A stretch of 60,369 nucleotides of DNA from Acidobacteriota bacterium (GTDB lineage Bacteria; Acidobacteriota; Terriglobia; Terriglobales; Acidobacteriaceae), in contig JAJYFB010000003.1 of assembly GCA_021785495.1 (NCBI GenBank), forward strand, positions 1 to 60,369. The letters are read 5' to 3'. Below, piece by piece: positions 11,182 to 38,714 of the stretch. Within the stretch, counting starts at the first letter, position 1, and the number at the start of each line of letters is the position of its first letter. Under the pieces are notes generated by a model. That model was not told the origin of the DNA and ran no database searches. It worked only from the letters and a program-made list of their open reading frames with translations. The translations under genes and the position numbers were made by a program.

Positions 11182-11562
11182 GCGTCTCGATCCTTGCCCA
11201 CGCTTTCGTTTTGAATCTCCGATTGAAAGAAGTATAAGCTGGCATCATGATTGCGTGGATGAGAAATCAAATTTCCAGTCAGGGCCAACGCATTTGGATT
11301 TCGCATTGCCGCCCGGAACAGCTTGGAAAGGGCACGGCTGAAGCCGTGCCCATTCCAAACAAAATCATCCCGCAAGCTGCAATGGGTTTGCCCTGCATTT
11401 CCAGTTTGATTGTATGGATACTTCCCCATCAAGCGATCGCCACGCGGCGGATGCGCCGGTTTTCGGTTTGGACTCGACAGCCCGTGGTTTCATTCATTGG
11501 CCGAGCGAAACCGCGGACGCATGGTGTCCCTGGGCAATGCGTCAATCCATCCGGGCGGAGCG
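11182..11562. other. Gene-free interval with a MITE-like repeat
   Basis: These 381 bases between the methyltransferase and the VirB10-like gene hold no convincing coding region. About a third is the 114-bp palindromic repeat described separately. The rest is of mixed composition. The short ORFs here on both strands are shadows of the repeat and of the neighbouring genes. Confidence 0.7.
11281..11394 (-). repeat. MITE/REP-like palindromic element, copy 1
   Basis: This is a 114-bp element. Its ends are imperfect inverted repeats (AGGGCCAACGCATTT and AATGGGTTTGCCCT), and its centre is a hairpin GGCACGGCTGAAGCCGTGCC. It is nearly identical, in the opposite orientation, to 38760-38873, which has the same length. 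The 9-bp direct repeat ATTTCCAGT flanks it at 11271-11279 and 11397-11405, as expected of a target-site duplication. No transposase is encoded, so it would have to be moved in trans. Confidence 0.85.
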
Positions 11563-12639
11563 CTAATTGCCCGCGTGCGCTTCGGGGGCCAGATTCAGAG
11601 GCTCGCTCAGGGTAAACAGCAGCACCGAGCCGTCATCGAGCGCCGCCTGCGGATGGTCCGCCAGCAGATGGACGGTGATCACACTGGCGCCGACAAGCGT
11701 TCCGGCCAGAGCGCCTCCGGGACCGGCCAGGAGCGCGCCCGTCACCGCGCCCGCGCCCACGGCCCCGCCGTACTCGATGCCATCCTTCCTGAAGCGCGAA
11801 CCGGCCAAGACCTTTCCTTCGTACCCGATCTTGTCTTTGGAGCCGGGTGCTTCGGAAAGCTGGGCGTAGAGCCGGAAGCGCGATCCGTCGGGCATCGTCA
11901 GCGTTTCGGGATGCAGGCGCATGGAACCTCGGCCCAGCGGGCGTCCGCTGGAAACCGCAAGGACTTTGCCCTCGATCATCGAGCCGGCGGGAATCAGCAC
12001 CTGACCGTCGCGCACGACGCCCGTGGCGACGCGGGCGCGGAACGGATCGCCTGGCCGATTCTCGGTTGTAGAAAGCCGGTCCAGAAGCCGGACGCGAATC
12101 GTCGTGCCCTCGGCCAGTTCCCCGGAGGGCAGCGGGGCCGGATGCACGATGTCGCCATCGGGATTGGGCGTTGCGTCGCGCCGGTGAAGTTCCGGATCCG
12201 GGCTGCTGCCGGCGGCAACCTCTACCAGGCCTGCGTCGGTTCCGTCGACAGGGCCGCAGTTTGCCGCAGCGTCTGCGGCCGTCGCGCGGGACGTCTCCTC
12301 TTCATGGGCCGGAACGGAGCTGGTCGCCGTGTCGTTGGCCGGAGCCGAAGAGGTCTCGCCGGGAACCGTCTCGGCGGCGTACGTCGGCGGCGCGGGCTGG
12401 GGCGCAGGTGCGGCGTTCGATTGCTGCGGCGCGGGCCTGGCGGCGTGATGACTTGGCGACGGTTTCGGTTTGGCCAGGGGCGCAGCCTGAGGCTGGTCCG
12501 CCGGCGCGGGCGTCGTGATGGCGCTGTCGGAAGGCGGGTTCGACGCGCCCTCGTACGGATTCGCCGGGGCCGACTCCTGCGCTCCCAGCGCGGCAGCCGC
12601 AGCCGCCAGCCATGCACACACAAGCAGCGTCCGTTTCAT
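11563..12639 (-). CDS. Secreted Pro/Ala-rich protein with VirB10-like barrel and glycine zipper
   Basis: The 358-residue protein begins with a signal peptide (MKRTLLVCAWLAAAAAALGAQ). A Pro/Ala/Thr-rich linker follows to about residue 175. The folded part has the pattern GTTIRVRLLDRLST, then VLIPAGSMIEGKV, which resembles the beta-barrel of TrbI/VirB10-type proteins. Near residues 300-330 a Gly/Ala-rich stretch (GAVGAGAVTGALLAG) looks like a glycine-zipper membrane segment. No type IV secretion genes are nearby, so an envelope role of unknown kind is the safest call. GAGAGGAG upstream of the ATG at 12639 supports the start. Confidence 0.7.
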   Translation of the reverse strand: MKRTLLVCAWLAAAAAALGAQESAPANPYEGASNPPSDSAITTPAPADQPQAAPLAKPKPSPSHHAARPAPQQSNAAPAPQPAPPTYAAETVPGETSSAPANDTATSSVPAHEEETSRATAADAAANCGPVDGTDAGLVEVAAGSSPDPELHRRDATPNPDGDIVHPAPLPSGELAEGTTIRVRLLDRLSTTENRPGDPFRARVATGVVRDGQVLIPAGSMIEGKVLAVSSGRPLGRGSMRLHPETLTMPDGSRFRLYAQLSEAPGSKDKIGYEGKVLAGSRFRKDGIEYGGAVGAGAVTGALLAGPGGALAGTLVGASVITVHLLADHPQAALDDGSVLLFTLSEPLNLAPEAHAGN

Positions 12640-12927
12640 GCCGATCTCCTCTCGAAGGGCCGGATTTCACCGCGGGTTGGCAGGAATCTCGCCGCGCGGC
12701 GAAAACCGTCCCCCGGCCGGGCCATGGCGAAAATCCGCCTACGATAAGCGTAAAGCGCAATCGGTCCCGCCGGGCGAACCATCCGTTTGACAGGAGCCTC
12801 GAAGGGCAAGAATCAAAAGAGTTACCGGAAGCGTCCGTTGGCGCGCTGGCGATGGACGCCGCCAGGCGGCGGGGATCGTCGCGAAAACCGTCTGCGCGGA
12901 GTCGCTGTGTGTATTTTTAGTTGTCGC

Positions 12928-22415: not shown

Positions 22416-25400
22416 TCAGCGATAGCGCCGGGTATTTTTGATCACCATGGAAAAAACGCCGGACTCGTCGCGGGCGACGACGAGCGAAAGGTGACGATTG
22501 ATGGCGACTTCGGCCTGGAGCAACTGCTCGCTGGCGGTGTCCACGTCGGTGGCGAAGGTGAGCGTGACGATGCGGCCGATCTGCTCCTGCACGGTGATGC
22601 GCGAGGTGGAGTAGCCGAAGGCGCCGAGATAGTTGGGATCGACCTTGACCGAGCCGGCGCCGAAGAGCTTCTGGATGCGGCTGCTGACGGTGGCGTTGAG
22701 CGCGCCGCCGAGAATCGCGTCGGTGGGATTGGCGAGGGTCTGCTCTTGTTGCTGCTGCGTGTAAAGACGCTGCTGGCTGGCCGTGTGGCCAAGGGCCAGC
22801 AGCGAGACGACGTCGGCTTCGGGCAGCGGCGGATCGCTGCGATAGCTGATGGAGAGCTTCTGCGGCGATCCGTGCAGGCCCAGGGCGATGTCGTAGTCCT
22901 CGACGCGGGCGGTGGCGCTGAGATCGACGACGGGCTCGATACGCACCGGATTGGTGAAGGTAACGTCGCCGCGTTCGAGATCGTAGCGGGTTCCGGCGAT
23001 CAGGGCGCTGCCTTCGACAATCGAAACGCGGCCCAGCAGCGAAGGCGCGGCCAGTGTGCCGCGCAGATGCAGATCGACGTTGCCGGCCAGCTTGGCAAAG
23101 GCATTCTGAAAATTCAACTGCGGTGAAGAGGCGATGCGTACGTCGAGGCGCAGATGGTTGGACGGTGCGTCGGGAGGGGCGACGGCTTGTGTGGCCGCAC
23201 TCGCCTGATTGACCAGCGAGGCAAGGTCAAGATCGGGGCTGACCGAAAAGCGCGTGATGAGAACGTCGCCGCTCAGAAGCAGGTTATTTTGCGGACCGCG
23301 CAGATGGAGGGTCGCGTCGGCCAGAGAGCTGACGCCGTCTGGGTAACGAATGTGCACATCTTTGCCCGTAACCGAAAGGTCGGCAAAAATTCCCTGCCGA
23401 TAGGAGAGAAATCCGCCCACGCTCAGCAGGCCGCCGCCGCTCATCGCCGTGAGCGATTGCACCTCCAGCCGGTTCTGATTGAAGACGAGCGTGCCGTGCA
23501 GTTGGCTCAGTCCGTTGGGGAGATCGCCGAGCGAGAGCGCGCCGTTCGCACATTCGATGCGTCCTTGCAGAGTCGGGCGATCGAGCGGTCCATGCGCTTC
23601 CACCTGAAAAACCGTGGTTCCGCTGGCGGTCAGATCGGGATCGAGGGTTTCGGCCAGCTTGAGGTTGATGGCTCCTTGGGCGGCAAGATCGAGCCGCCGT
23701 TCGCCTTCGATCGACAGTGCGCCCTCCATGCGCAGATCGGTGTTTTCGCCGGTGACGTGCAGCGGGTCGAGATGAATGCGGCCATGGGCGAGCGTTGCAT
23801 GCAGCCCGCCTTCGCCCCGGAGCGCTACGCCGGAGAGGGTCAACGCAAGATCGCGAAGCTGAGCCTCACCGCGTAACTGGCTGGGATGCGCAAGTGGGCC
23901 GTCGATGGCGATCGTCCCGTCGAGCGCGGATTGACCGTTGAAGGCGTCCACATGCGCCATGCGCAGCACCGCGCCGAGATCGAAACGCGAAAAGGCAAGC
24001 TGCGCGCGAGTGGGATCGTCGCCGCGGAGAAGGGTTTCGCCACGCAGCGCGAGCACGGCCCTTTGCCGCTGTGTTGAAGCACTGTATTGAAGCGTGGGGC
24101 CGGCGGCGTGCGCGGTAAGGTGCAGCGTGCCGAAAGGCTCGCCACGAAAGGTCGGCTCCGTAATGGCGCCCTGGCCGTCGAGATGAGGATTGCTCAATGT
24201 ACCCGATCCGGTCAGCGTAAAGGCAAGTTTCCCTGCGGCTTCGAGCCCGCGCATGCAAGCGAAGCCCATTTGCGCAAGCTCGATTTTTTCTGCGTGCGCC
24301 GCGATCTGGAATTGACGGGTTTTGAAGTCGTAACTTCCCGACGCAGCGAGCTCGCCGCCGGCCACCTTCAGTGCAGCCGGCGAGAGCTTGAGCCGTTGGC
24401 CGTCGAACGCGCCCCGAAGATGCAGGCCGGAGACCGGTTCGCCGTTGAGAACGCCGTGCGCCATGGCGAGGGATCCAGAGACAAATGGCGCTTGCAGAGA
24501 GCCGTCGGCGTTGATCTGCGCGTTGAAGAGGCCGGAGAGCTGAAGCGGCTCGCCGACGCGCGCCGCGAGGAATGGTTCGACCTCCGCCGCGTCGAGATTG
24601 GTTCCATCAAAGCGCGCATGGAGCAGGGAATTTGCGCCGAACTCCGGCGAGCGGTTCGGAGCGGCGTCGAGTGCGCCCTCGATCGTGATGCGCGTGCCGC
24701 CGTGTAGAAGCTGCGCATGTCGAATTGTGATGCGGGCGGGCGAGTAGATGCCCTCGGCCGAGACGGAATCGAAGCGCAACTGCCGCAGCGGAGCGGAAGT
24801 TGCGGCGGTGGATGGCAGCGCCACCGAAAGCTGCGTGGCGGCAAGGATGCCTGCAATCTGTGGCCGGGCCAGCGAACCGGTCCATGCACCGTGAAAATCG
24901 GCCCGCCCCGCCAAGGCGACGGGCAGGGCCGCGATTCCGATTTTGCCGTTGCGCTGGAAACCAAGGCTGCGCAGGGCAGGATCGAATTCGGCCAGATTGC
25001 GCGAGTGAACATCGAGGGTAAGCGCCGAAGGGCCGTCCACGGGATAGGCGCCCAGCGCGCCATGGGCTTCCAGGTCGCTCGCCGGGGTGTGCAGTTCGAG
25101 CCTGCGCAGTTGCACGGCGCCATTGCGATGCGCGTAGCTGGCCTCGATCGCGCCGCTGGCGGGCACTTCGCCGGCGGGGGTCTGCCGCGAAGGGCTCAAC
25201 GCAAGCTGCGCATCGACGACGACGGTGCGGCCATCGCCGTGCGACCAGGCGGCGGCGGCCGATCCGTTCAGGCGCGTATCCAGCCCCAGCCTCCGGTAAG
25301 CGCGTGGGCTGACCATGTCGAGCAGCGAGTCGAGAGCGACGTTCTTGAAGTCGGCAGTGACCTTGCCGTTGACGGGAATCATCCAGTCCGGCGCACGCAC

Positions 25401-26675
25401 AAGAGCGTTGCGGTCGGTGGAAGGCGTTTGTGCCGGGCTTTTTTGCGGATGCGCGGAGGGATCGAGCGGCAGCCAGGGCGAAATCGCGAGCGATCCGTCG
25501 ATCTGGCCGCCCTGACGCAGACGGGCGGAGATCTGCGGAATCAGCAACTGCTTTTGATCGGCATGGACATGCGTCGCAAGCGCAATGTCTCTTGCATGGA
25601 TTCCCTCGCCGATATACGAACAGTCGTCGATGTGAACGCCGCCGTCGATCGTGAACGCGCTTCCTTCGCCGGAGGCGGTCAGGTCGAGATGCGCCAGACC
25701 CGCGGGCGCATCGGCATAGCCTGTCGCCGGCTCGATCAGCCGCAGATCGAGATCGCCCAGCAGGCGCGCATGCCAGCGTGGATGCGCGAAATCCTCGATA
25801 CCTCCCGTGACGTTGAGTGCGTGGGTCGCGCTGCCGCGTCTTGCGGCGGCAAGGCGCAGCGAACGCAAAACGACCCGCGAGCGCTCCAGGTCGAGCGTTG
25901 CCTGCATCGCGCCATGCACGGCGAGGCTTTTGCGCGGAACGGAGCGAGCCAGGTCAAGATCGGTGACGCCGACTTCGATGCGATACGAGGCCGGCATGCG
26001 CCACGGTCCGGCAACGTGGCGCATGGCGAGCGAGAGGTCGTCGGCGGCAAAGTCGAACGGAAGATAACGATCCTGATAATCGAACTCGGCGGCGCGAACG
26101 TCGTAGTGAATTCGTCCCTCTTCGATCGCGATGCGGCTGGCGTGCAAAGCAAACAGCGTATCGATGGACGGCCTGGACGAGGTTTTTCGTTGCTTCGGCG
26201 CCGGCAGGTTTGTCGTCCCGTTGGGATAGACGATCAGGTGCAGGCAGGGCCGGCCGATCTCCAGGCTGCGCAGGCGCACGGTGGGACTGAAGAGATTGCG
26301 CAGGCTCAACACCACGCGCAGGGTTTCGATCGTGGCCAGCGGCGCTTCGCCGGGATCTTCCAGACCGTGAATCGTTACGCCGCCGGCTTCGGCTTCCAGA
26401 TGGAGCAGATGCCAACGAAAGGATGCGATCTCAACCCGGCCTCCAGTCAGATCTTCTATCGACGCGGCCAGCCGCTTGCGGACCAGGTTTTCAAAACGCG
26501 CGGAACTGGCGGCGAAGTAAAGGCCCGTGACCGCAAGCGCCAGCAAAACCACGGCGCCTGCAACGGCCAGCGGAAGATGACGCAGGAAGAAGCGGCGCAG
26601 ACGGCGGCGCGCGCCACGCCGTGGAAGCGGCGGCAGGGCCGACCCGTTGTTCGCAGGATTTTCCCGATCGCTCAA
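22416..26675 (-). CDS. tamB: Translocation and assembly module subunit TamB-like protein (AsmA/DUF490 family)
   Basis: A large envelope protein of about 1419 residues with one N-terminal membrane anchor (LPLAVAGAVVLLALAVTGLYFA). A long repetitive beta-rich body follows, and the conserved DUF490 C-terminus carries SATARVEDYDIALGLHGSPQKLS and DPPLPEADVVSLLALG. Family members span the periplasm and help insert outer membrane proteins or move lipid. The start is read as TTG at 26675: it overlaps the TGA of the SurA-like gene (TTGA) and has AAGGAGG 6-7 bases upstream inside that gene. The ORF track's 40 extra residues would overlap the upstream gene by 124 bases. It is the third gene of the tamA/SurA-like/tamB run. 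Confidence 0.9.
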   Translation of the reverse strand: MSDRENPANNGSALPPLPRRGARRRLRRFFLRHLPLAVAGAVVLLALAVTGLYFAASSARFENLVRKRLAASIEDLTGGRVEIASFRWHLLHLEAEAGGVTIHGLEDPGEAPLATIETLRVVLSLRNLFSPTVRLRSLEIGRPCLHLIVYPNGTTNLPAPKQRKTSSRPSIDTLFALHASRIAIEEGRIHYDVRAAEFDYQDRYLPFDFAADDLSLAMRHVAGPWRMPASYRIEVGVTDLDLARSVPRKSLAVHGAMQATLDLERSRVVLRSLRLAAARRGSATHALNVTGGIEDFAHPRWHARLLGDLDLRLIEPATGYADAPAGLAHLDLTASGEGSAFTIDGGVHIDDCSYIGEGIHARDIALATHVHADQKQLLIPQISARLRQGGQIDGSLAISPWLPLDPSAHPQKSPAQTPSTDRNALVRAPDWMIPVNGKVTADFKNVALDSLLDMVSPRAYRRLGLDTRLNGSAAAAWSHGDGRTVVVDAQLALSPSRQTPAGEVPASGAIEASYAHRNGAVQLRRLELHTPASDLEAHGALGAYPVDGPSALTLDVHSRNLAEFDPALRSLGFQRNGKIGIAALPVALAGRADFHGAWTGSLARPQIAGILAATQLSVALPSTAATSAPLRQLRFDSVSAEGIYSPARITIRHAQLLHGGTRITIEGALDAAPNRSPEFGANSLLHARFDGTNLDAAEVEPFLAARVGEPLQLSGLFNAQINADGSLQAPFVSGSLAMAHGVLNGEPVSGLHLRGAFDGQRLKLSPAALKVAGGELAASGSYDFKTRQFQIAAHAEKIELAQMGFACMRGLEAAGKLAFTLTGSGTLSNPHLDGQGAITEPTFRGEPFGTLHLTAHAAGPTLQYSASTQRQRAVLALRGETLLRGDDPTRAQLAFSRFDLGAVLRMAHVDAFNGQSALDGTIAIDGPLAHPSQLRGEAQLRDLALTLSGVALRGEGGLHATLAHGRIHLDPLHVTGENTDLRMEGALSIEGERRLDLAAQGAINLKLAETLDPDLTASGTTVFQVEAHGPLDRPTLQGRIECANGALSLGDLPNGLSQLHGTLVFNQNRLEVQSLTAMSGGGLLSVGGFLSYRQGIFADLSVTGKDVHIRYPDGVSSLADATLHLRGPQNNLLLSGDVLITRFSVSPDLDLASLVNQASAATQAVAPPDAPSNHLRLDVRIASSPQLNFQNAFAKLAGNVDLHLRGTLAAPSLLGRVSIVEGSALIAGTRYDLERGDVTFTNPVRIEPVVDLSATARVEDYDIALGLHGSPQKLSISYRSDPPLPEADVVSLLALGHTASQQRLYTQQQQEQTLANPTDAILGGALNATVSSRIQKLFGAGSVKVDPNYLGAFGYSTSRITVQEQIGRIVTLTFATDVDTASEQLLQAEVAINRHLSLVVARDESGVFSMVIKNTRRYR

Positions 26676-27475
26676 CGGACGCCTCCTTGCATACGATCCG
26701 GCCCGGCCGCGGCTTGCGGCGCGGGCACAGGTCCGGTGGCGAGCGAGGGATCGAGAATCTCGACATTGCCCTGCTGGCGGAGATTGGCCAGCCAATTGTC
26801 AAAAAGATCATTGACCTGCTGCTCCAGCAGAATTTCGCGAATTCGCGCGGCCACTTCGTCGAGCGGCGGAACCGTTTCTCCAGGCGCGTACTGCGGCAGC
26901 ATGGTTTTGCGGTAGTACTGCTCGACCTGCTGCGGTTCGATCTGAATGCCCTGACGAAAACGCTGTTCGATGAAGCGCAGAATCTCCATCCGGGAGCGAA
27001 GATAGGCTTCGACGCGCTGCTCGGTTAGTCCCTGAGCGGCCAAAAATGCGCTCCAGCCTGCTGCGTTGGAGCAGTGCGCGCGTACGCAGGCCGGCAAATC
27101 CGTGCGCAGTTCGTGGAGCCGGCTTTCCACCTCTTTCTGTGCGGGTTCAATGGACGACATGTCCTCCTGACGCATCTGTTCTTCAACGAGCGTACGGCTG
27201 ACGAGTTTCGCGAGCGCCTGCGTGGGCGTGAGCGCTTGGGATGAATTGTTGCTCGGTTCGAGAATCGAGAGACGCATCTCGTCGTCGAGATCGCTGGCCA
27301 GAAGAACGCGCCTGTTGACGACGGCGACCACGCGGTCAAGCACGATGGACGAGCTGGCGGGTTGTTGTGCGAAGACCGCCGCAGCGCAGAGCGCGACCAT
27401 CGCCAGGGCGACGAACAGCCGCGTGCGCACGCCGTGCGATTTTTTCCATCGGGTTGTGACGCGCGTCGTCATCAA
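26672..27475 (-). CDS. SurA-N-like periplasmic chaperone
   Basis: The 267-residue protein has a signal peptide (LFVALAMVALCAAAVFAQ). A SurA N-terminal-type helical domain follows, opening with SIVLDRVVAVVNRRVLLASDLDDEM, the usual start of SurA/PpiD chaperone domains. No parvulin PPIase domain is present, so chaperone activity without isomerisation is expected. The C-terminus ends in a Pro/Ala tail. Its start overlaps the tamA stop by 4 bases (ATGA) and its stop overlaps the tamB TTG start. Translational coupling of all three is therefore likely, and the protein probably escorts substrates to the TamA barrel. Confidence 0.85.
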   Translation of the reverse strand: MMTTRVTTRWKKSHGVRTRLFVALAMVALCAAAVFAQQPASSSIVLDRVVAVVNRRVLLASDLDDEMRLSILEPSNNSSQALTPTQALAKLVSRTLVEEQMRQEDMSSIEPAQKEVESRLHELRTDLPACVRAHCSNAAGWSAFLAAQGLTEQRVEAYLRSRMEILRFIEQRFRQGIQIEPQQVEQYYRKTMLPQYAPGETVPPLDEVAARIREILLEQQVNDLFDNWLANLRQQGNVEILDPSLATGPVPAPQAAAGPDRMQGGVR

Positions 27476-30400
27476 AATGCCTGTCCCAGGCTGAAAAAGA
27501 AGTTGATGTGCGGCGCCTGATCCAAAAATGGAGCAGAATACGGGCCATATGGAGTCGCGCTCGCTTTGGGAATCGCATAGTTGATATTGACCGGGAAGAT
27601 GGGCGGATTCAAGTTGTAGCTGAAGTCGAAGCGAATGGGGCCGACCGGCGTGTGATAGCGCAGGCCAGCGCCGAGCGAGTGTGAGAAATCATTGTAGCTG
27701 CATGGACCTTGCTGACCGGTCGAAGTGACAGGCCCCGTGGGATTGTAGCCGCCGGCCGGGTATGCCACGCCCGGATCGGTAATGACCGCGCTTCGACATG
27801 CCGCGCTATCCGGCTGGCGCACGCGCAGCAGGCTGGCCCATGCGTCGCCGGCGTTAGTGAAGACGTTGCCCATGTCGTGAAAGAGAACGAAGCTCACTGT
27901 GTTGCCAAACCAGGGCAGCGTGGGTGGCGGCAGGCGCAGTTCGGTGCTGTTGATCAGAGCGCCCGCGCCGCCGATCTGATAGCCGGTTTCCGGGTCGCGC
28001 GGGCCTGCCGCATTTTGCGCAAAACCGCGCAGCGAAACGGGGCCGCCGGCGAAGAGCCGCTCGGGGAGCGGAATCAGCTCGCTGGATCCGTTGCCGAAGG
28101 CGCGAATCTGGCCATAGCGCGTGTTCCGCGCCACGACAAAGCGTTTTTTGTCGAAACTGTAGTAGCTGGAGTTCGATGTGTCAATGCGGTTAAACTCGGC
28201 CTGCGCGCCGAAGAGCCGGTCGGAGAGAAACTCCTGAAAGCTGGTGTATGTTCCGCGATGCGCGTCCAGCGGCACGTCGCGCGTATCGCGAATCCAGGTG
28301 AAGGCCGGTCCGCCGACGCGCGTTGCCGTCGAGAGCAAGGAGATCTCGCCGGGATAGACCTGCAAGCTGGGCGCGGCCACCTTCACTCTGCGGAAATCAA
28401 TCTCGTAAATGAAGGTGTTGGCGCGGGAGATCCACGAGCCGGGACGGTTGAAGTTTTCGGTCAGGCGGAACGAGCCTTCCAAACGCGACGCGACGTATGT
28501 CGAAACATCCTGGCTGTTGGCGTAACCGCCCGAAAAGGTAAGGCCGAAGTCGGGACTTCCCTGAAGGTGCGGAATCTGGTACTGAACGCCGATGCTCTGT
28601 TCGAGCAGACCGTAGGTGCCGCGCAGCGAAGCCGACTGTTCGCGGCCGAAGAGATTGTTGCGCGTGATGTCGGCCAGTACGCGCGGGCTGACGCCGGTTT
28701 TACCGTTGGGATTGCAGGGGACGCCAGCCGCGGAGGCGCCGGCGCAGTTGTTCTGCGGCTGGCCGGTCTGCGCCTCGAAGCCGAAGCCGTAGGTCAGCGT
28801 CCAGCGGCGCGCTTCGCTGGCCTGAAGCAGAACGGTCTTCTGCGCCGCGCCGCCGTTGGGATCGACGACCGCCGTGTTGACCTCGTTGAACAGCCCGAAT
28901 GCGTAAAGGTTGCTCTGCGTCGCCGTAAGCGCGTTCTGATTGAGCGGGTCGCCGGCATGAACCGCGATGGCCCGCGCCACGGTTTGCGGGCGTACCTCTT
29001 CGAGGCCTGTCAGCAGCACATTGCGTACGAAGGTTTGCGGTCCCTCGTCGATATGAAAGACGACATCGACCTTGCCGCGCCCAGCCGATTCCGGTTGTTG
29101 AACGGCTTGAACGGCCACCTGTTCAAAGCCCTGGCGCAAATATTGCGAAACGATGGCGTCGTGGTCGCCGGCGAGGCTGCGCGGCGAAAGCATCTGGCCG
29201 GGTTCGGTATTCAGCAGGGGAAGCAGCGCCGTGGCGGGCAGGTGCGCATTGCCCTCGATACGCACGGCGCCGACGCGGGTGGGCGATCCTTCGTCGATGC
29301 GATAGAGAACGCGCAGCGAAGCCGCATGACGCCGGCCGATCGTGCTCTGCGCCGTTTCGCGATGCGCCTGTCCGGCTGCGGTTCCGGTCTCGGCCGTCAC
29401 TTGGACCTGCGCAAAGCCGTTATTGCGATAGACGTTTTCGATCGCATGGATGTCGGCGGTGACCAGCGCCTGGCTGTACACACCGTGCGGATCGAGCAGA
29501 TCGGCCACGTGAACATTGAGCAGAACTTTGAGCGTGGCCGTCGAAAAATAGCGATTTCCCACGATGGAAACCTGCTCAACGCGACGCCGTTGGCCCAGTT
29601 CCACGTTGTAGACGATGGTCACTTCCTGGCCGCCGGTCGCGCGTAGCGTGTGCGCGATGCTTGCGTCGAAGTAGCCCAACCGCTGATAGTAGTCGCGCAG
29701 GCGGCGATTGCCCTCATTGAGCAGATCCTCGTCCACGCTACCCTCGCGATAGATGGGAACAAGGGCGCGAATACGCTCGGGATCGAGGCTGGCGCCGCGC
29801 ACTTCGACATGCACCACCGGACCGCGATGGGCGGTGAACCGGTAGTTGACGGCCCTTGCGGCGCGGTCGTAGGCGGACGATTCGAGTTTGACCTCGGCTT
29901 CGAGCCGGTCCTCTTTCTGGTAGAAGCGCAGTACCCCGTCCAGAGCGCGATTGACGGTGTCGCGGCTGACGTGACCGATTTTCCAGAGACGGGCGTGAAG
30001 ACGGAATTCGTCCACGGTCATTCCCGAATCGCCTTCCACGAGGACCTGGCCGACGTGCGCGCGCGGCCCGGAGACAACGCGAAATGCGACGTCGGCAAGC
30101 TGCTGGCGCGGGTGCGGCGTAACGGCAGGAGCAATCGTCGATTCGTAGTAGCCGCTTTGCTCGATTGTCGCGCGCATCTGCGCGATGGCCCTGCGCATTT
30201 TTTCCGCGGTCAGCCGGGTTCCGGCGTCGAGTTGGCTGGCGCGCTGCAACTGCATGTTCATGGCTGCGCCGGTAGCGCCGCTCACGCTCACGATTCCGAT
30301 GAAGGTGCGCGGCTGGCCGGCAAAGGTCAGCGCCACGCCGCCGTCGATCGGTGCGCCTTGTACCTCCAGCGTGTCATAGAGGCCCGTGGCGTACAGTTGG

Positions 30401-30753
30401 CGCAGACTCTGCTGTAGATCCTCTTCGCGGAGCGGTTTTTCTTCGGCCACAGGCAGATGACTGGCCAGCGGCTGCAGGCGATCGGCGGAAACACCCTCGA
30501 AGGCGATGCTGCGCACCGGCAGACCCTCCCAGCGAAAGATGCCGACGAGGGGCAAGGCCGTTCCGGCGGTTGCGCCCTGCCGAACGGCGGAGGTCGACGC
30601 CGTGGGCAACGAGGACAGATCCGGGCGCGGCTGCTGGCAGACGCCGGATTGCGCACCGCCGACCGCCCATACAGCGGATGCAAGCAAAACTCCGGCCCAC
30701 GCCGCTCGACGCGCAAGACGACGCCAACGGGGAAGGTGTCGATGCACGACCAT
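27472..30753 (-). CDS. tamA: Omp85-family outer membrane protein with POTRA domains (TamA/BamA-like)
   Basis: About 1093 residues with an N-terminal signal region (WAGVLLASAVWAVGG). A long series of POTRA-type repeats follows (for example GAVRIEGNAHLPATAL and VSIVGNRYFSTATLKVLL), then a C-terminal 16-strand barrel containing the Omp85 L6 signature SLRGF. It ends in aromatic residues as outer membrane proteins do. Pairing with tamB argues for TamA, while the number of POTRAs is closer to BamA than to three-POTRA TamA; the gene symbol is therefore tentative. The ATG at 30753 is preferred for the signal peptide, although an ATG at 30849 is possible. It is the first gene of the operon. Confidence 0.85.
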   Translation of the reverse strand: MVVHRHLPRWRRLARRAAWAGVLLASAVWAVGGAQSGVCQQPRPDLSSLPTASTSAVRQGATAGTALPLVGIFRWEGLPVRSIAFEGVSADRLQPLASHLPVAEEKPLREEDLQQSLRQLYATGLYDTLEVQGAPIDGGVALTFAGQPRTFIGIVSVSGATGAAMNMQLQRASQLDAGTRLTAEKMRRAIAQMRATIEQSGYYESTIAPAVTPHPRQQLADVAFRVVSGPRAHVGQVLVEGDSGMTVDEFRLHARLWKIGHVSRDTVNRALDGVLRFYQKEDRLEAEVKLESSAYDRAARAVNYRFTAHRGPVVHVEVRGASLDPERIRALVPIYREGSVDEDLLNEGNRRLRDYYQRLGYFDASIAHTLRATGGQEVTIVYNVELGQRRRVEQVSIVGNRYFSTATLKVLLNVHVADLLDPHGVYSQALVTADIHAIENVYRNNGFAQVQVTAETGTAAGQAHRETAQSTIGRRHAASLRVLYRIDEGSPTRVGAVRIEGNAHLPATALLPLLNTEPGQMLSPRSLAGDHDAIVSQYLRQGFEQVAVQAVQQPESAGRGKVDVVFHIDEGPQTFVRNVLLTGLEEVRPQTVARAIAVHAGDPLNQNALTATQSNLYAFGLFNEVNTAVVDPNGGAAQKTVLLQASEARRWTLTYGFGFEAQTGQPQNNCAGASAAGVPCNPNGKTGVSPRVLADITRNNLFGREQSASLRGTYGLLEQSIGVQYQIPHLQGSPDFGLTFSGGYANSQDVSTYVASRLEGSFRLTENFNRPGSWISRANTFIYEIDFRRVKVAAPSLQVYPGEISLLSTATRVGGPAFTWIRDTRDVPLDAHRGTYTSFQEFLSDRLFGAQAEFNRIDTSNSSYYSFDKKRFVVARNTRYGQIRAFGNGSSELIPLPERLFAGGPVSLRGFAQNAAGPRDPETGYQIGGAGALINSTELRLPPPTLPWFGNTVSFVLFHDMGNVFTNAGDAWASLLRVRQPDSAACRSAVITDPGVAYPAGGYNPTGPVTSTGQQGPCSYNDFSHSLGAGLRYHTPVGPIRFDFSYNLNPPIFPVNINYAIPKASATPYGPYSAPFLDQAPHINFFFSLGQAF

Positions 30754-31061
30754 TGGACGCGACAGACGAGAAGAAGGCTTCGATCGGGGCCTGCATCGGA
30801 AAGCCGGTTCGGCGCTGCTTCGTGCTCCCGGCTTTGTCCTCAAGTCCATATCTCAAAAAGTATGCGAGTCTTGAACGCTCAGAGGAATCCTGTCGCGCCT
30901 GAGTTGCCTGTTTCGGCTCGTTCGCCGCCGCCGAGCCCTGCCGCGGCCGTTCAGGTCCCCTTCAATCGCGTGAATCCTTCCTTTTTCCATACTAACGAGG
31001 AAAGAGTTTGGAGCGAAACCAGAGGGCCGCCAGCGTTTCTCCTTGCGCGCGAGAAGAAACC
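30754..31061. other. Intergenic region upstream of the tam operon
   Basis: These 308 bases lie between the tamA start and the end of the polysaccharide enzyme gene, both on the minus strand. They should hold the tam operon promoter. A CATACTTTTT stretch (minus strand, near 30855-30865) is the only AT-rich candidate. No gene was seen. Confidence 0.5.
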
Positions 31062-34000
31062 TTACGGCGCGGCCTCGGTCAAAGCCTCGGTTTGCTTGCT
31101 CATTTTCGCGGTGCGCTCGATCTTGTCCCAGTTGAAGGGCTTGCCGTCGATGGCGCGCTTGAGCGTTTTGGCAAGCACAATCGAAAAGACCTGCCGGTAC
31201 GCAAAGCGCTGCAACCAGATGTGGAAGAGCAGCCATCCATCGCCCTTGTTGGCCGGGTGACGGCGCTCCAGGCTGAAGGCCAGCGACGAAGTGACAAAGT
31301 CGATGACCAGGAAGCCGAGGAAGTACACGATGAGCTTTTCCAGGCTGGCCGTCGAGGCCGCCTCCGGGTGATAGTGGCGATTGATGAAATAGTTGCCCAC
31401 ACCGGCCAGGAACATGATGTCGATGAAGGGCGAAACCAGCGGCAGGAACATCTGGAAGATGAGAATGTTCGGCAGGGCGAACAGGCCCATCGCCAGGCTG
31501 CGGAAGAAGGCGGCGCGATGCTTCCAGACCGCCTGCAAGGTGCCGAAAGACCAGCGGAAACGCTGGCGCATGAGGCCGAGCATGTCGATCGGCGCTTCGG
31601 TGAAAGCCAGCGCGCGGTCCTCGTAATCGACCCTCCAGCCCTTTTCGAGCAGGCCCATGGTCAGGTCGGCGTCTTCGGCGACCGTATTGAGCGGATAGCC
31701 GCCGAGGGCTTTGACCGGAGCCGTGCGCCAGGCGCCGATGGCGCCGGGGACCACCGTAATAACGTGGAAAAGATCGAGGGCGCGGCGCTCGAAGTTCTGG
31801 CTGGTGATGTATTCGAGCGCCTGCCAGCGGGTCCAGAGGTTGACGCGGTTGCCCACCTTGGCGTTGCCGGCGATGGCGCCGATCGAGGGGTTCTGAAAGT
31901 GCGGAATCAGCCGCGAGATGGCGTCGGCGGCGATGACCGTGTCGGCGTCGATGCCGATGTAAATCTCCTCGTCGATGCGCGCGAGCGCGTAGTTGAGCGC
32001 CGCGGCCTTGCCGCCGTTGGGCTTGGTGAGCACTTGCAGGCGGCCCGAGGCGATCTCCTGGGCGTAGGCTGCGGCGGCCACCTCGGCGGTGCGGTCCGTC
32101 GATCCGTCGTCGATGACGATGGCGCGCAGGTTTTTGTAATCGGAGTTGAGCACCGAGCGGATGGTGCGCACGATGACTGTTTCTTCGTTATAGGCCGGGA
32201 TGAGCACGGCGACGTGCGGCGCGAACTCCGGCGAGCTGCGGTAGCGCGGCCGGCGCAGCCGATCGAGGATGGCGAAGACGCCGACGAGAATCAGACGCGC
32301 GCTCATCAAAATGTCGCCCACGAAGAAGACGAGAACGATAAAATTGGCGACCAGCTCGGCGATGGAAAAAGCGATCGAGTCGGGAAGGGTGCGCACGCGC
32401 TGCCAGAAGCCGAGCGGAGGCATGACCTGCGCGGTGGTTTTGCCCATCAGTGCGGAGACGGGAACGATGGTGTAGCCGTGGGCGCGCAGGGCGTCGATGA
32501 GCGGACCAAGCGACGCGACGGTCTCCGAGCGGTCACCTCCGCCGTCGTGCATGAGAATGACGGAACCGCGAAACTGCGGCTTGGTCTTCATCGTTTCCAG
32601 TTGATTGAAGACCGACTGGATAATTTCCGGGGTGGTTTTGCGCGGGTTTTCGTCCCAGTCGTTGGTGTCGATCTTGCTGCCGATGATGATGAGGCCGTCC
32701 TGCTGGATGCGCCAGGCGGGCGCGGCTTCGTCGTCCGTGTCCGGCTCTTCGTCGATGTCGTAGGGCGGACGGAAATAAAGCGGCTGCACGCCGAGCTTGC
32801 TCTCGAAGAGGCGCTCGGTCAGATTGACCTCCAGATCGAGCTGACGCCGGGAGATTTCGCTGATGTCCGGATGGGTCCAGGTGTGATTGCCGATCTCATT
32901 GCCTTCGCGGACGATGCGCTGCAGCAGCCCGATGTGTTCCGCAGCTTCCGAACCGATGGCCATGAAAGCCGCGTGAACGTGCTTGGCTTTGAGAATATCA
33001 AGAATCTTCGGCGTCCACTGGGGGTCCGGGCTGTCATCGAAGGTGAGCGCGACTTCGTTGGGATGGTAGCCGTACTGCTGGATGGTGTAGCTGTGCGGAT
33101 ACACATCCATGTGCTCGTCGACGATGAGCTTTTTGCGCGGGTCGGGCTCGTCGGTGTCCACCTCGACGGAGCGCTGGCCGGACTGCGGAAGGCCCGTAAT
33201 GCGAATGATGTCGCCTTCGCCCTCCGTATCCACGTCGTGGCCGGGTTGCACCGTGCCGAGCGCCGAGAGCGCCTCCGGGCTGCTGGGCTTATCCCAGATC
33301 TTCCACACCGAGCTGTCTTCCTCGCCCAGCCGCCAGATTGCGAAGGTTTGCAGACCGAGCTGCTGCGCGGCGCGCATCTCGTTGAGCACGGTGACGGCGT
33401 CGAGAAACCAGACGATGTGGCGCTGGTTGGCGTCCTCGTCGATGTACTCGTAGTGCGGATTGAGCGAATCGCTGTCGAGATCGAGATCGGCGCCGGCGTC
33501 GGAGGCGCGCTGCCAGGCGTCGGAGACCGCGAGATCCTCGGTATCGACCACCACCGGCTTGCGATGCGGACGGCCGTGCGGATCGGGGATGGTCAGCGTC
33601 CAGTCGTAGCCGTAATTGCCGACGGCGCAGATGATCTTGTTTTTGGGAACAATCTTGAGCACCCGCTGCAGATTGGCCACAAACCATCCCTGCGCGGCCA
33701 CTGGACCGGGATCGGAGGTGGTCTGGTGCTGATCGTAGTTCATCAGCACGATGCCGTCGGAGTTGGCGGCGATCGCCTTCAGATCGGCATCGCTGGCGGC
33801 GACGGCCACGTTCACAAAAAGCCGCCGGTTGTGCGCGTGCATCTGGGCGTAGAGCGCCTCGATGAAGGCGATATACGACGGATCGGCCGCGTCGGGAATG
33901 CTCTCAATGTCGAGCGACAACCCGCGATAGACCGGAAAGGCCAGCAGGAAGCGCAGGATCTGCTGGCGCAGCGCGGCGCTTTTGACTGGGTCCTGCAGCA

Positions 34001-34598
34001 CCGCGCCCATGCCCTCGTCCCAGCTTTGCGTGTGCGGATTGAAGTTGTTCAGATGCGGAAAAATGTCGGTCTCGACCGGCGGCGCCAGCACCACGTGCTT
34101 CACCTTGTTGAGGCTGTCGGGATCGTGAACGGTGTTGCCTTCGATGAGCGGGTACTCGCGCAGATTGTCGTCGCTCATGGCCATCAGCGCGCCATTGGGC
34201 GAGTCCACGTGCAGCCATTGCGGGAAGAGCAGGTCGATCTGGTGGATGTGCTCCTTGAGCGAGGTGTAGCTGGCGGCGTCGTCCTGCACATAGTAAGCAG
34301 CGCGCAATCCCTCGCCCGCGTTCAGCGGAATATCGGCCGGACGCCGGTTGGTCTTGCGCCGCGCGGGCCGCTGTTTTTGCGCCTTGGTCTTGTGGAGCAG
34401 GGTCGTGCGGTCGGGCAGGGCGTGGAAGTTGTGCCGGGGCACCGGCAGCAGAATCTCCGGCAGGCGCTGGCCGCGCAGAACGTTGAAGACAAAACCGGCC
34501 AGCACAAGCGTGGACAGCACCGCCGTAATATCGATGACACGGCGCAGGCGCTTCCAGCGCTTCCGCTCCGGGTCGTAAAAAATCTGCCGATCGGGCAT
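31062..34598 (-). CDS. Three-domain GH18-like / NodB deacetylase / GT2 polysaccharide synthase
   Basis: The 1178-residue membrane protein joins three enzymes. A membrane helix (20-40) is followed by a GH18-like barrel (about 95-470) keeping the DxE pair in GLSLDIES (D230, E232). A NodB deacetylase (about 515-730) has TFDDS, NHTWTH, RPPYD and LMHDGGG. After a membrane segment (742-778) comes a processive GT2 domain (795-1020) with IPAYNEE, DAD at 884-886, EDADLT and QRFRW, and then C-terminal membrane helices. By analogy with PgaC/PgaB and NodC/NodB it should build, de-N-acetylate and perhaps cut a beta-linked GlcNAc polymer. The polymer identity is inferred. It is divergent from the GT39-like gene. 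Confidence 0.9.
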   Translation of the reverse strand: MPDRQIFYDPERKRWKRLRRVIDITAVLSTLVLAGFVFNVLRGQRLPEILLPVPRHNFHALPDRTTLLHKTKAQKQRPARRKTNRRPADIPLNAGEGLRAAYYVQDDAASYTSLKEHIHQIDLLFPQWLHVDSPNGALMAMSDDNLREYPLIEGNTVHDPDSLNKVKHVVLAPPVETDIFPHLNNFNPHTQSWDEGMGAVLQDPVKSAALRQQILRFLLAFPVYRGLSLDIESIPDAADPSYIAFIEALYAQMHAHNRRLFVNVAVAASDADLKAIAANSDGIVLMNYDQHQTTSDPGPVAAQGWFVANLQRVLKIVPKNKIICAVGNYGYDWTLTIPDPHGRPHRKPVVVDTEDLAVSDAWQRASDAGADLDLDSDSLNPHYEYIDEDANQRHIVWFLDAVTVLNEMRAAQQLGLQTFAIWRLGEEDSSVWKIWDKPSSPEALSALGTVQPGHDVDTEGEGDIIRITGLPQSGQRSVEVDTDEPDPRKKLIVDEHMDVYPHSYTIQQYGYHPNEVALTFDDSPDPQWTPKILDILKAKHVHAAFMAIGSEAAEHIGLLQRIVREGNEIGNHTWTHPDISEISRRQLDLEVNLTERLFESKLGVQPLYFRPPYDIDEEPDTDDEAAPAWRIQQDGLIIIGSKIDTNDWDENPRKTTPEIIQSVFNQLETMKTKPQFRGSVILMHDGGGDRSETVASLGPLIDALRAHGYTIVPVSALMGKTTAQVMPPLGFWQRVRTLPDSIAFSIAELVANFIVLVFFVGDILMSARLILVGVFAILDRLRRPRYRSSPEFAPHVAVLIPAYNEETVIVRTIRSVLNSDYKNLRAIVIDDGSTDRTAEVAAAAYAQEIASGRLQVLTKPNGGKAAALNYALARIDEEIYIGIDADTVIAADAISRLIPHFQNPSIGAIAGNAKVGNRVNLWTRWQALEYITSQNFERRALDLFHVITVVPGAIGAWRTAPVKALGGYPLNTVAEDADLTMGLLEKGWRVDYEDRALAFTEAPIDMLGLMRQRFRWSFGTLQAVWKHRAAFFRSLAMGLFALPNILIFQMFLPLVSPFIDIMFLAGVGNYFINRHYHPEAASTASLEKLIVYFLGFLVIDFVTSSLAFSLERRHPANKGDGWLLFHIWLQRFAYRQVFSIVLAKTLKRAIDGKPFNWDKIERTAKMSKQTEALTEAAP

Positions 34599-34719
34599 CT
34601 GTCGTTCCTGTTCGCTCCAGTGTCAAAACGCGCAAACGCGCGCAATCCTGCCGAGGGCCACCGGAGCCAGTACCGGCAAAGTACACGCCCACCAGGGAAT
34701 GCTTTACAGTACAAATCGT

Positions 34720-36246
34720 ATGAAAGCCGAGCCAGAGAGTCAAACCGCCGTGCCGTGGCGCCATGCCGCCGTGCCGTGGCGCCGGATTGCGCCCGTGGCC
34801 CTGCCTTTGCTGGCAGGGCTTGTGCTGCGCCTGTGGCTGCTTGGCCCGGTCTTCAATGTCGATGGAGATTCGCTCATTTATGGCGGCATCGCCAAAAATC
34901 TTCTGCGGCAAGGCCGCTACGCTCTCGGCTCGCCCGGTGGCGCCGTCGATCCGACGCTGATCCGCCTGCCGGGCTATCCATTTTTTCTCGCTCTCTGCTT
35001 CCGGCTTTTCGGCATGGAAAACTACTTTGCCGCAGCGCTGGCGCAAATCGCGCTCGATCTGCTGGGTTGTTTGCTACTCGCCGCTTTCGTGCGCCGCATC
35101 GCGCCCGCGCCGTTCGGCCGCAGGGCTGCGCTGGCCGCGCTCTGGCTGGCCGCGCTTTGTCCGTTCACCGCCTCGTACGCGGCGATGCCGCTGGCCGAGA
35201 CGCCGACGCTCTTTGCGATTGCGCTGGCCCTGTGGTCGATGGCGCGATTTCAAGAGGATCCCCGCTGGGCGAATGCCCTTTGGTGGACTCTGGCGGTTAC
35301 CGCCGCCGCTTTGCTGCGCCCCGATGGCGCACTGCTGGCCATCGCGCTGGCTCCCGCATTTTTTGGGGGTCTGGAGCCGGTTTCGGGCCAGGGCGCATCT
35401 GCCCTGCGCGCGCGCCTTCGCATGGCTGCCGTCTGCCTCCTGCTGGCATTGCTGCCCTTTGCTGTCTGGACCCTGCGCAACTGGAGGGTCTTTCACGTCT
35501 TCGAGCCCTTGGCGCCGCGCCTGGCCAACGATCCCGGCGAACCGGCGAATTCCGGCTGGGAGCGATGGGTGGCGAGCTGGTGTCTTGATTTTCAATCCAC
35601 CGCGGAAGTCTACTGGAACGTTCCGGACAACAAACTCGACGTCCATGCGCTGCCCGCGCGCGCCTTCGATACTTCTGCCGAACGCGCTGCAACCATGGCG
35701 CTCGTCAGGGACTACAACCACAACGGCATGAAACTGACCCCGGCCATCGACGCGCGTTTTGGCCAGTTGGCCCGCCAGCGCATCGCCGCCCATCCCCTGC
35801 GTTTTTTTCTATGGCTGCCGCTGGGCCGCCTGGCCGACATGGGTCTGCGCCCACGCGTCGAGAACCTCGACATCGATCTCGACTGGTGGGTGTACGCGCA
35901 TCACTGGCAGGAGACCGTGTTTTGCTGGGCCTATGCGGGGCTGAATGCGCTGTATCTGCTGCTGGCCGTTGCGGGGCTCGCGATGCGGCCGCGGTTTGGG
36001 CGCGCGCTCCTTGTCTATCTGCTCTTGCGCAGCGCGCTTCTGCTGACCGTGTCCGCTCCGGAGACGCGCTACACGATCGAGTGCTTCCCGATGTTTTTTG
36101 CTCTGGGCGGGCTCGCCATCGGGCGATGGATGGACCGGCGCAATGCGGAGGAACACGCCGCATCGATGCCTGCATCCAGAGCGCGCCGGCTTTCGGCCGG
36201 CCTCACTTTGCGAAATCGAAGGCGGTCTTCGGCAGCGGGCGATTGA
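34720..36246 (+). CDS. GT39/ArnT-like membrane glycosyltransferase
   Basis: A polytopic GT-C fold enzyme of about 508 residues with some ten hydrophobic helices. The first periplasmic loop carries VFNVDGDSLIYGGIAKNLLR, the acidic-loop pattern of polyprenyl-phosphate-sugar dependent transferases (PMT, ArnT). It probably moves a sugar from a lipid carrier onto a periplasmic acceptor. The start is uncertain: ATG at 34720 (MKAEPES) or at 34699. A 21-bp near-perfect duplication near the 5' end gives TAVPWRHAAVPWRR. Its 3' end overlaps the convergent LolA-like gene by 44 bases. Confidence 0.8.
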   Translation: MKAEPESQTAVPWRHAAVPWRRIAPVALPLLAGLVLRLWLLGPVFNVDGDSLIYGGIAKNLLRQGRYALGSPGGAVDPTLIRLPGYPFFLALCFRLFGMENYFAAALAQIALDLLGCLLLAAFVRRIAPAPFGRRAALAALWLAALCPFTASYAAMPLAETPTLFAIALALWSMARFQEDPRWANALWWTLAVTAAALLRPDGALLAIALAPAFFGGLEPVSGQGASALRARLRMAAVCLLLALLPFAVWTLRNWRVFHVFEPLAPRLANDPGEPANSGWERWVASWCLDFQSTAEVYWNVPDNKLDVHALPARAFDTSAERAATMALVRDYNHNGMKLTPAIDARFGQLARQRIAAHPLRFFLWLPLGRLADMGLRPRVENLDIDLDWWVYAHHWQETVFCWAYAGLNALYLLLAVAGLAMRPRFGRALLVYLLLRSALLLTVSAPETRYTIECFPMFFALGGLAIGRWMDRRNAEEHAASMPASRARRLSAGLTLRNRRRSSAAGD

Positions 36247-36886
36247 CCTCGATGTGCGTATACAGGCAGACGCGCGATTGGCCCTCGCCCTCGTCGAAGA
36301 CCTGCTTGAGGCTGACGGCGCGCGCGGTGTCCATCCAGATGGTCACCTTGGGAAAGAGCTTGAGCACCTTCGGATCCCTGGCGATCAGCTCGAACTTGTC
36401 GGCAACGATGCCATCGATCTTTTCCTTGCCGCGATAGACGATCTTCCACTTCGCTTCCAGGTCTTTACCGCTGGCGCCAAAGCCGAGCATCAGGTAGCTT
36501 TCGTACTTGCTGGCTTCGTCGTAGGTCCGTGCGTCCTTTTCCTTGCCGGTGTCGGAGATGCGCAGCTTGCCCTGCGAGAAGATATACGCCCTTGCAGCCG
36601 GCCGGCCGTTGTGCGCGGCGATGTGCGCCGCCATCGCAAACCGGCCGCCGTTGCGCTCGTAGTACGCGACGCCGGTCATCGCGTCCTTGTCCGGAATCGG
36701 ATCGATCTGGATGCTGTCAAACTCGAAGTTCGCCGTCGCGGTGTGGAAGCTGGCGGCTGCGGCGTCGAGCCGGGCCAGCGCGCCCGCCTTCTCCGCGCTG
36801 ACTGGGTCCGCGGCCTGCGCGGTCCGGACGAAAAAAAACGCCGCCGCAACCAGCGCGAGCAATGCAAAAAATCTGCGTGCCTGCAT
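36203..36886 (-). CDS. LolA-like periplasmic protein
   Basis: A secreted protein of 227 residues with signal peptide RRFFALLALVAAAFFFVRTAQA. The mature part alternates beta strands of the LolA/LolB kind (FHTATANFEFDSIQ, GKLRISD, WKIVYRGKEKIDGIVADKFELI, VTIWMDTARAV). LolA relatives carry lipoproteins or other lipids across the periplasm. The typical outer-membrane lipoprotein box is absent. GAGGA upstream supports the ATG at 36886. It is downstream of the serS/membrane protein pair, with a 56-base gap. Confidence 0.7.
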   Translation of the reverse strand: MQARRFFALLALVAAAFFFVRTAQAADPVSAEKAGALARLDAAAASFHTATANFEFDSIQIDPIPDKDAMTGVAYYERNGGRFAMAAHIAAHNGRPAARAYIFSQGKLRISDTGKEKDARTYDEASKYESYLMLGFGASGKDLEAKWKIVYRGKEKIDGIVADKFELIARDPKVLKLFPKVTIWMDTARAVSLKQVFDEGEGQSRVCLYTHIEVNRPLPKTAFDFAK

Positions 36887-36942
36887 GAAATTCCTCATTG
36901 ATTGGACGCACGACAACATCGCGAAGACGCAAGAAAACGCGC

Positions 36943-37358
36943 CTAACGGTGCGCCCAGACCTTCCAGGCCAGATTGCCCTGGGCGTCACGCACCGTCTCC
37001 CATTTTTCGACATAGACGGCGTCGCCCATCACGGGCTCGATGGCTTTGCGCAGCGTCTGCTTCACCTGGCCTTCGGAGGCGTCGGCCGGAATCGCGACAT
37101 CGGCCGACGCAACGGTAACGATCACGCCCACGCCGCTCGGCTCGACCTGGAACGGATGCACGGAGCCGGCGACCGGCGAGGGCTTCGCGCCGTAGTCCCA
37201 CAGGCGCGGCGTGACGAAGAGAAACGCCAAAATCAGCGTCACCATCACGTCATAGTGAAACGATCCGCGCGGATAGGTCCAGTAGAAATAACTCTTCAGC
37301 ACCTGGCCAGCGCCAGGCCTGGCCGTGCTCGCCGCGCCACTCGATGAAATTGCCGCCA

Positions 37359-37359
<1 letters not shown>
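36943..37359 (-). CDS. Hypothetical protein with one membrane segment
   Basis: The 138-residue protein has an Ala/Ser-rich N-terminus and a hydrophobic helix at about residues 38-52 (DVMVTLILAFLFVTPRLW). A soluble C-terminal half follows with alternating beta and helix (VGVIVTVASADVAIPA, KQTLRKAIEPVMGDAVYVEKWET). Its ATG shares one base with the serS stop (TGATG), so it is translationally coupled to serS. No family is recognised. A membrane-anchored periplasmic domain is the natural reading. Confidence 0.7.

Positions 37360-38714
<1,355 letters not shown>

Follow-up and report, generated by a model that had tools for sequence, protein, structure and literature searches.

A GH18–NodB–GT2 protein conserved in Acidobacteriota and its proposed role in making a partly deacetylated amino-sugar polymer

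The trifunctional gene and its protein

The window, a stretch of 60,369 nucleotides from an Acidobacteriota bacterium (GCA_021785495.1, contig JAJYFB010000003.1), carries on its minus strand, at 31062–34598, an ATG-initiated reading frame that runs uninterrupted in the ORF listing and translation through 1178 residues, with a membrane segment, a GH18 domain, a NodB (CE4) domain, a second membrane segment, a GT2 domain and further membrane segments in that order. Each domain exceeds its Pfam gathering score: Glyco_hydro_18 at residues 199–426 (39.6 bits, cut-off 29.6), Polysacc_deac_1 at residues 513–613 (98.2 bits, cut-off 23.1) and Glyco_tranf_2_3 at residues 794–1019 (108 bits, cut-off 27). 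A preliminary description of this DNA had read the motifs of all three domains as intact within one chain, and this holds, D230/E232 belonging to GH18, TFDDS (519–523) and NHTWTH (571–576) to NodB, and DAD (884–886), EDADLT (975–980) and QRFRW (1012–1016) to GT2. An overlapping plus-strand ORF of 1526 aa is best read as a shadow ORF of GC-rich DNA. Divergent from the trifunctional gene, across an intergenic region of 100 bp common to both (34599–34698), lies a plus-strand gene of 515 aa (34699–36246) for a GT-C fold glycosyltransferase (PMT_2). The trifunctional gene is real and conserved and, judging by its sequence, probably functional.

The N-terminal region, whose GH18 likeness had been proposed from motifs, belongs to GH18 by sequence (Pfam) as well as by fold. 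The domain spans residues 98–440 (33279–34307, minus strand, as for all features of the gene), and in a Foldseek search with the structure model its best matches are 4wiw, SleL (4s3k) and 5jh8, with a TIM-barrel TM-score of 0.85 by target length to 5jh8. The active-site residues D230, E232, Y288, D289 and W422 are all present, the DxE motif D230-I-E232 (33903–33911) retaining D and E in 48 of 49 rows each in alignment A1. The NodB/CE4 de-N-acetylase domain (residues 510–720; 32439–33071) matches 5o6y and 4l1g in the PDB, has PgdA, PdaB and NodB as its nearest models, and possesses the D-H-H metal triad and catalytic motifs of CE4 (D521, D522, H572, H576, R610, W648, H684). In an alignment of the window protein with 121 distinct homologues, the catalytic/metal Asp pair of motif 1, D521-D522 (33033–33038), and the metal histidines of motif 2, H572 and H576 (32871–32885), are invariant in all 122 rows, as are R610 and H684. 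The processive GT2 domain (residues 790–1035; 31494–32231) combines the DxD, ED and Q/RxxRW motifs with membrane helices; these motif residues are unchanged in each homologue row that spans them, including Q, R and W of the QRFRW motif (31551–31565) in 121 of 121 covering rows. The identities of the domains and the intactness of their active sites are thus established.

Hydropathy places hydrophobic segments at residues 18–44, 737–782 and 1029–1111. The first is an N-terminal membrane anchor (34467–34547; model helix 13–42) preceded by a basic stretch, an arrangement of the N-in type; the second is a crossing helix between NodB and GT2 (residues 738–780; 32259–32387), continuous in the model at a low pLDDT of about 50–61 and followed by RLRRPRYR; the third belongs to a set of C-terminal interfacial and transmembrane helices seen in model and hydropathy (residues 1035–1150; 31149–31496). 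The AlphaFold2 model, built from 49 sequences, has a mean pLDDT of 74.5 and a pTM of 0.61, the GH18 and NodB domains being well modelled and the membrane parts poorly, and beyond the GH18 enzymes its Foldseek matches include the deacetylase Bc1960 and hyaluronan synthase. The basic N-terminus, the one segment before GH18 and the crossing helix are consistent with GH18 and NodB lying outside and GT2 inside. The predicted topology, whose helices have low model confidence, thereby agrees with the orientation put forward earlier.

Distribution and the GT-C partner

A contig scan matched 55 loci, all from Acidobacteriota, at 51–85% identity and mostly with one unbroken frame. The gene occurs in 69 of 396 sampled Acidobacteriota genomes, one copy per genome, and almost every member sampled from the Acidobacteriaceae, the family of the window, carries it. 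Full-length relatives about 32–38% identical are found on replicons of Novosphingobium, Sphingobium, Sphingomonas, Deinococcus, Prevotella and Sulfitobacter, so that orthologues extend to Sphingomonadaceae, Deinococcus, Prevotella and Rhodobacterales, and the GH18–NodB–GT2 fusion to Pseudomonadota, Deinococcota and Bacteroidota beside Acidobacteriota; occurrence outside Acidobacteriota was judged from plasmid and chromid records, with uneven sampling of phyla. NodB–GT2 proteins lacking GH18 are present in Kocuria and Streptomyces, and in Kocuria a separate chitinase-annotated gene, weakly GH18-like and under the Pfam cut-off, adjoins the NodB–GT2 gene. The impression given earlier that such a fusion is exceptional is corrected by this spread and by MatB, a NodB–GT2 fusion already in print. 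The architecture is already widespread, and the window gene is an instance of an experimentally uncharacterised family. To our knowledge, GH18–NodB–GT2 proteins are listed in CDD as uncharacterised, and a literature search by CDD identifiers (cd06549 and cd10962, which we take to be the entries for these 'trifunctional' proteins) gave a single hit, in whose text the term did not appear, and among the papers searched no functional study of them was found.

The idea that the long ORF fuses separate genes through an error of sequencing or assembly finds some support in a few copies: the MAG copies of L026/L068 and L030 are broken, these being fragmented assemblies, and a Sulfitobacter copy has an in-frame stop. 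The unbroken ORF nevertheless recurs in most of the 55 loci and in many independent assemblies and phyla, and the joining of genes by a frameshift, which had been named as a possible refutation, is ruled out by this recurrence; an artefact is very nearly inconceivable. The Sulfitobacter copy (Sulfitobacter sp. OXR-159, L100, 4590–8003) carries its single stop within NodB, and its annotation splits it into two genes. Sphingomonas bisphenolicum has an ORF (L102, 3945–6191) whose GT2 is a close relative; neither GH18 nor NodB was detected in it, and its N-terminal region has no identified domain.

The association with the GT-C gene, to which attention had been drawn from the window alone, is conserved and its linkage is established. 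This gene scores 37.6 bits for PMT_2 (cut-off 26.1), and its model (pLDDT 88.7) has ArnT, the enzyme that transfers Ara4N to lipid A, as the nearest solved fold (E 6.7e-6) at a TM-score of only 0.38, a likeness that, as modelled, is one of fold class only. The two genes are neighbours in 53 of the 55 loci; in one of the others they lie about 7 kb apart, and in the last the GT-C gene was not seen. Among 20 more Acidobacteriota loci (34–54% identity), at least nine have a GT-C gene next to, or within one gene of, the trifunctional gene. Its orientation varies, being divergent in L134, L139, L141, L152 and L153, same-strand and directly upstream in L136, and same-strand and downstream in L140, L147 and L148. 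As PMT_2 genes number only about eight in the window's genome, the recurrence of this linkage in altered orientations is probably not due to chance or to gene order simply inherited.

Other neighbours are more variable. A conserved gene downstream of the trifunctional gene was looked for and not found. Next to the GT-C gene, two window genes (36203–36919 and 36943–37359) have no Pfam or NCBIfam match and belong to a block (36203–38705) ended by a seryl-tRNA synthetase-like gene, which lies beside the GT-C gene in many relatives. In one genome (L138) a TnpB-like (Cas12f1-like/OrfB) transposon gene (11201–12685) is close to the trifunctional gene. A DUF3131 gene follows the trifunctional gene on the Rhodobacterales plasmids L096 and L101, and a diguanylate cyclase gene (L093, 9594–11129) lies directly downstream of the Deinococcus copy, suggesting control of that copy by c-di-GMP. 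In sphingomonads of three genera (replicons L091, L092 and L094), genes for the lysyl-phosphatidylglycerol synthase MprF, a VirJ-family (VirJ/AcvB-type) hydrolase and a two-component system lie near the trifunctional gene in varying order.

The polymer and the part played by GH18

From its sequence, the protein probably makes and exports a partly de-N-acetylated poly-GlcNAc. The cytoplasmic GT2 domain would polymerise GlcNAc from UDP-GlcNAc and push the chain out through the membrane helices, the outward NodB domain, tethered near the exit, would strip some N-acetyl groups and leave a polycationic chain, and the GH18 domain, farther out, may cut or bind the chain and thereby set its length or release, as an optional step. 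Synthesis, deacetylation and trimming would thus be coupled in one protein, and the GT-C partner probably has this same polymer, or its acceptor, as its target. We infer the sugar, linkage, topology and coupling, as well as all activity of the trifunctional protein. A precedent for deacetylation plus limited hydrolysis is offered by PgaB, whose deacetylase and hydrolase domains act in PNAG export.

Among curated models, the GT2 domain ranks PgaC_IcaA (TIGR03937) first at 170.6 bits and NodC (TIGR04242) second at 98.9 bits, falling short of both equivalog cut-offs (at least 422.3 bits for PgaC/IcaA, which the E. coli PgaC control passes at 648, and at least 550 for NodC), so that neither linkage nor GlcNAc specificity is fixed by these scores. 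Its identity is 43–45% to NodB–GT2 bifunctional proteins and 26–35% to PgaC/IcaA, a related Levilactobacillus GT2 and NodC taken together. A tree of GT2 domains, with 12 forks left open, recovers PgaC/IcaA in one supported group and NodC in a second; the trifunctional sequences fall alongside the bifunctional ones of MatB type, outside either group.

The GH18 domain argues for a beta-1,4 linkage, and the kinship with PgaC and MatB for beta-1,6. A beta-1,4 product of the chitin/chitosan kind, or a short chito-oligosaccharide, cut by GH18 and standing in place of beta-1,6 PNAG, is given appreciable weight but held to be less likely than not. GH18 enzymes act on beta-1,4 GlcNAc links and the third domain here is a true GH18, the PgaB-type GHL13/GH153 model (PF14883) finding its E. 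coli control and nothing in this genome; PgdA, PdaB and NodB are the closest models for the deacetylase domain, and the GT2 domain is about as far from NodC (30–31%) as from PgaC (29–34%). The higher PgaC_IcaA model score tells against such a product, as do the lineages without the GH18 acid, and MatB, with the same PgdA/NodB-like esterase, makes PNAG (PMC5972031).

The losses of that acid bear on whether GH18 trims the poly-GlcNAc chain. In the 122-row alignment D230 is kept in 120 rows and E232 in 114, some exceptions being proteins without a GH18 domain; the real exceptions at E232 are Sulfitobacter (DAT), Limimaricola (DFS) and a Granulicella pair, L070 (NFQ) and L131 (DFQ). The members of this pair are 78% identical to each other, and their nearest relatives keep DFE. 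L070 (Granulicella mallensis X5P3) and L131 are sister copies in which the catalytic Glu has become Gln and the rest of the protein is intact, L070 having in addition Asp to Asn and Trp to Phe changes; in Rhodobacterales the catalytic Glu is lost on the plasmids L096 and L101. By sequence, the Granulicella pair represents natural GH18-dead variants and the acid has been lost at least twice, in two lineages. As these lineages keep the rest of the protein, hydrolysis or trimming would be usual and dispensable, with synthesis and deacetylation retained. For the trimming proposed earlier, the window protein has an intact DxE motif, but such a step would not be universal. The same lineages offer a ready natural knock-out test of what trimming adds.

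Two other roles for GH18 were weighed. It might, in many hosts, be a carbohydrate-binding or export scaffold and no hydrolase, as would suit the retention of a domain in which the Granulicella mallensis/G170 pair and Rhodobacterales have Q, T or S for the catalytic E; since D230 and E232 persist almost throughout the remaining homologues with a GH18 domain, even those with an overall identity of about 32–38%, this is improbable. Comparably unlikely is that GH18 cleaves peptidoglycan rather than the polymer and opens the wall locally to let the chain pass. Its best fold and sequence matches do include the spore-cortex enzymes SleL and YdhD, which are peptidoglycan cleavers; the chitinases 5jh8 and 4q6t match equally closely, however, and lineages with a dead GH18 retain the rest of the protein.

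Export, surface context and known systems

For the outer-membrane step of the proposed export, no real match to the PgaA porin, only TPR noise, was found in the window's genome, and PgaA is uncommon across the phylum (1 of 119 Acidobacteriota examined). Downstream of the trifunctional gene, at 22416–30849 on the same (minus) strand, TamB, SurA-like and Omp85 genes lie in a row, the Omp85 being BamA/TamA-like with three POTRA stretches; they were considered as an export route and rejected, none being found in the flanking DNA available for the other 55 loci.

Acidobacteria are abundant in soil, and their surface polymers are little known; elsewhere, partly deacetylated amino-sugar polymers support biofilm formation and adhesion. 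If the poly-GlcNAc proposal is true, many acidobacteria have a one-protein machine for such a polymer. The sphingomonad copies beside MprF and VirJ/AcvB-type genes fit a cationic envelope product, and this MprF context suggests that the product may make the envelope more positively charged. Two Granulicella strains have as their exopolysaccharide a Man/Glc/Gal/Xyl heteropolymer in which NMR showed no acetate groups, amino sugars lying outside the standards used, and Granulicella exopolysaccharides are described as neutral and acidic heteropolysaccharides (PMC5259719), so that an aminopolymer, if made, would be distinct from these or make up a minor part of the surface. Three features stand out as unusual: the conservation of the GT-C partner, the natural loss of GH18 function in some lineages, and the missing porin. 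A speculative and rather doubtful extension is that the trifunctional protein and GT-C gene constitute a separate, undescribed envelope system of Acidobacteriota, in which a self-processing cationic aminopolysaccharide is further glycosylated by GT-C and gets to the cell surface, or builds it, without a PgaA-type porin.

Among the closest known counterparts is MatB (SCO2962), a CE4–GT2 fusion that Streptomyces lividans needs for PNAG (PMC5972031; PMC4391728). Like MatB, the window protein is predicted to have NodB outside, GT2 inside and one membrane link, in the same order; the GT2 of both is nearest to PgaC, and the window protein is MatB-like in joining NodB and GT2 in one chain, their GT2s grouping together in the tree. 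MatB, in contrast, has no GH18, works with MatA in a monoderm host, and its product is PNAG by antibody and dispersin B. In E. coli, PgaB and PgaC likewise supply a synthase, a deacetylase and a hydrolase that serve a single poly-GlcNAc, PgaB coupling deacetylation with limited hydrolysis by its GH153 domain during PNAG export (PMC5933820). They differ in being separate proteins, in a GH153/GHL13 hydrolase that is C-terminal to the deacetylase, and in needing PgaD and PgaA, the latter not found in the window's genome. The window protein thus appears to reach a PgaB-like set of functions through another hydrolase family and domain order. Rhizobial NodB and NodC, whose equivalog cut-offs are both missed by the window protein, also pair a CE4 deacetylase with a GT2 GlcNAc polymerase, but do so as separate proteins with a short oligosaccharide product.
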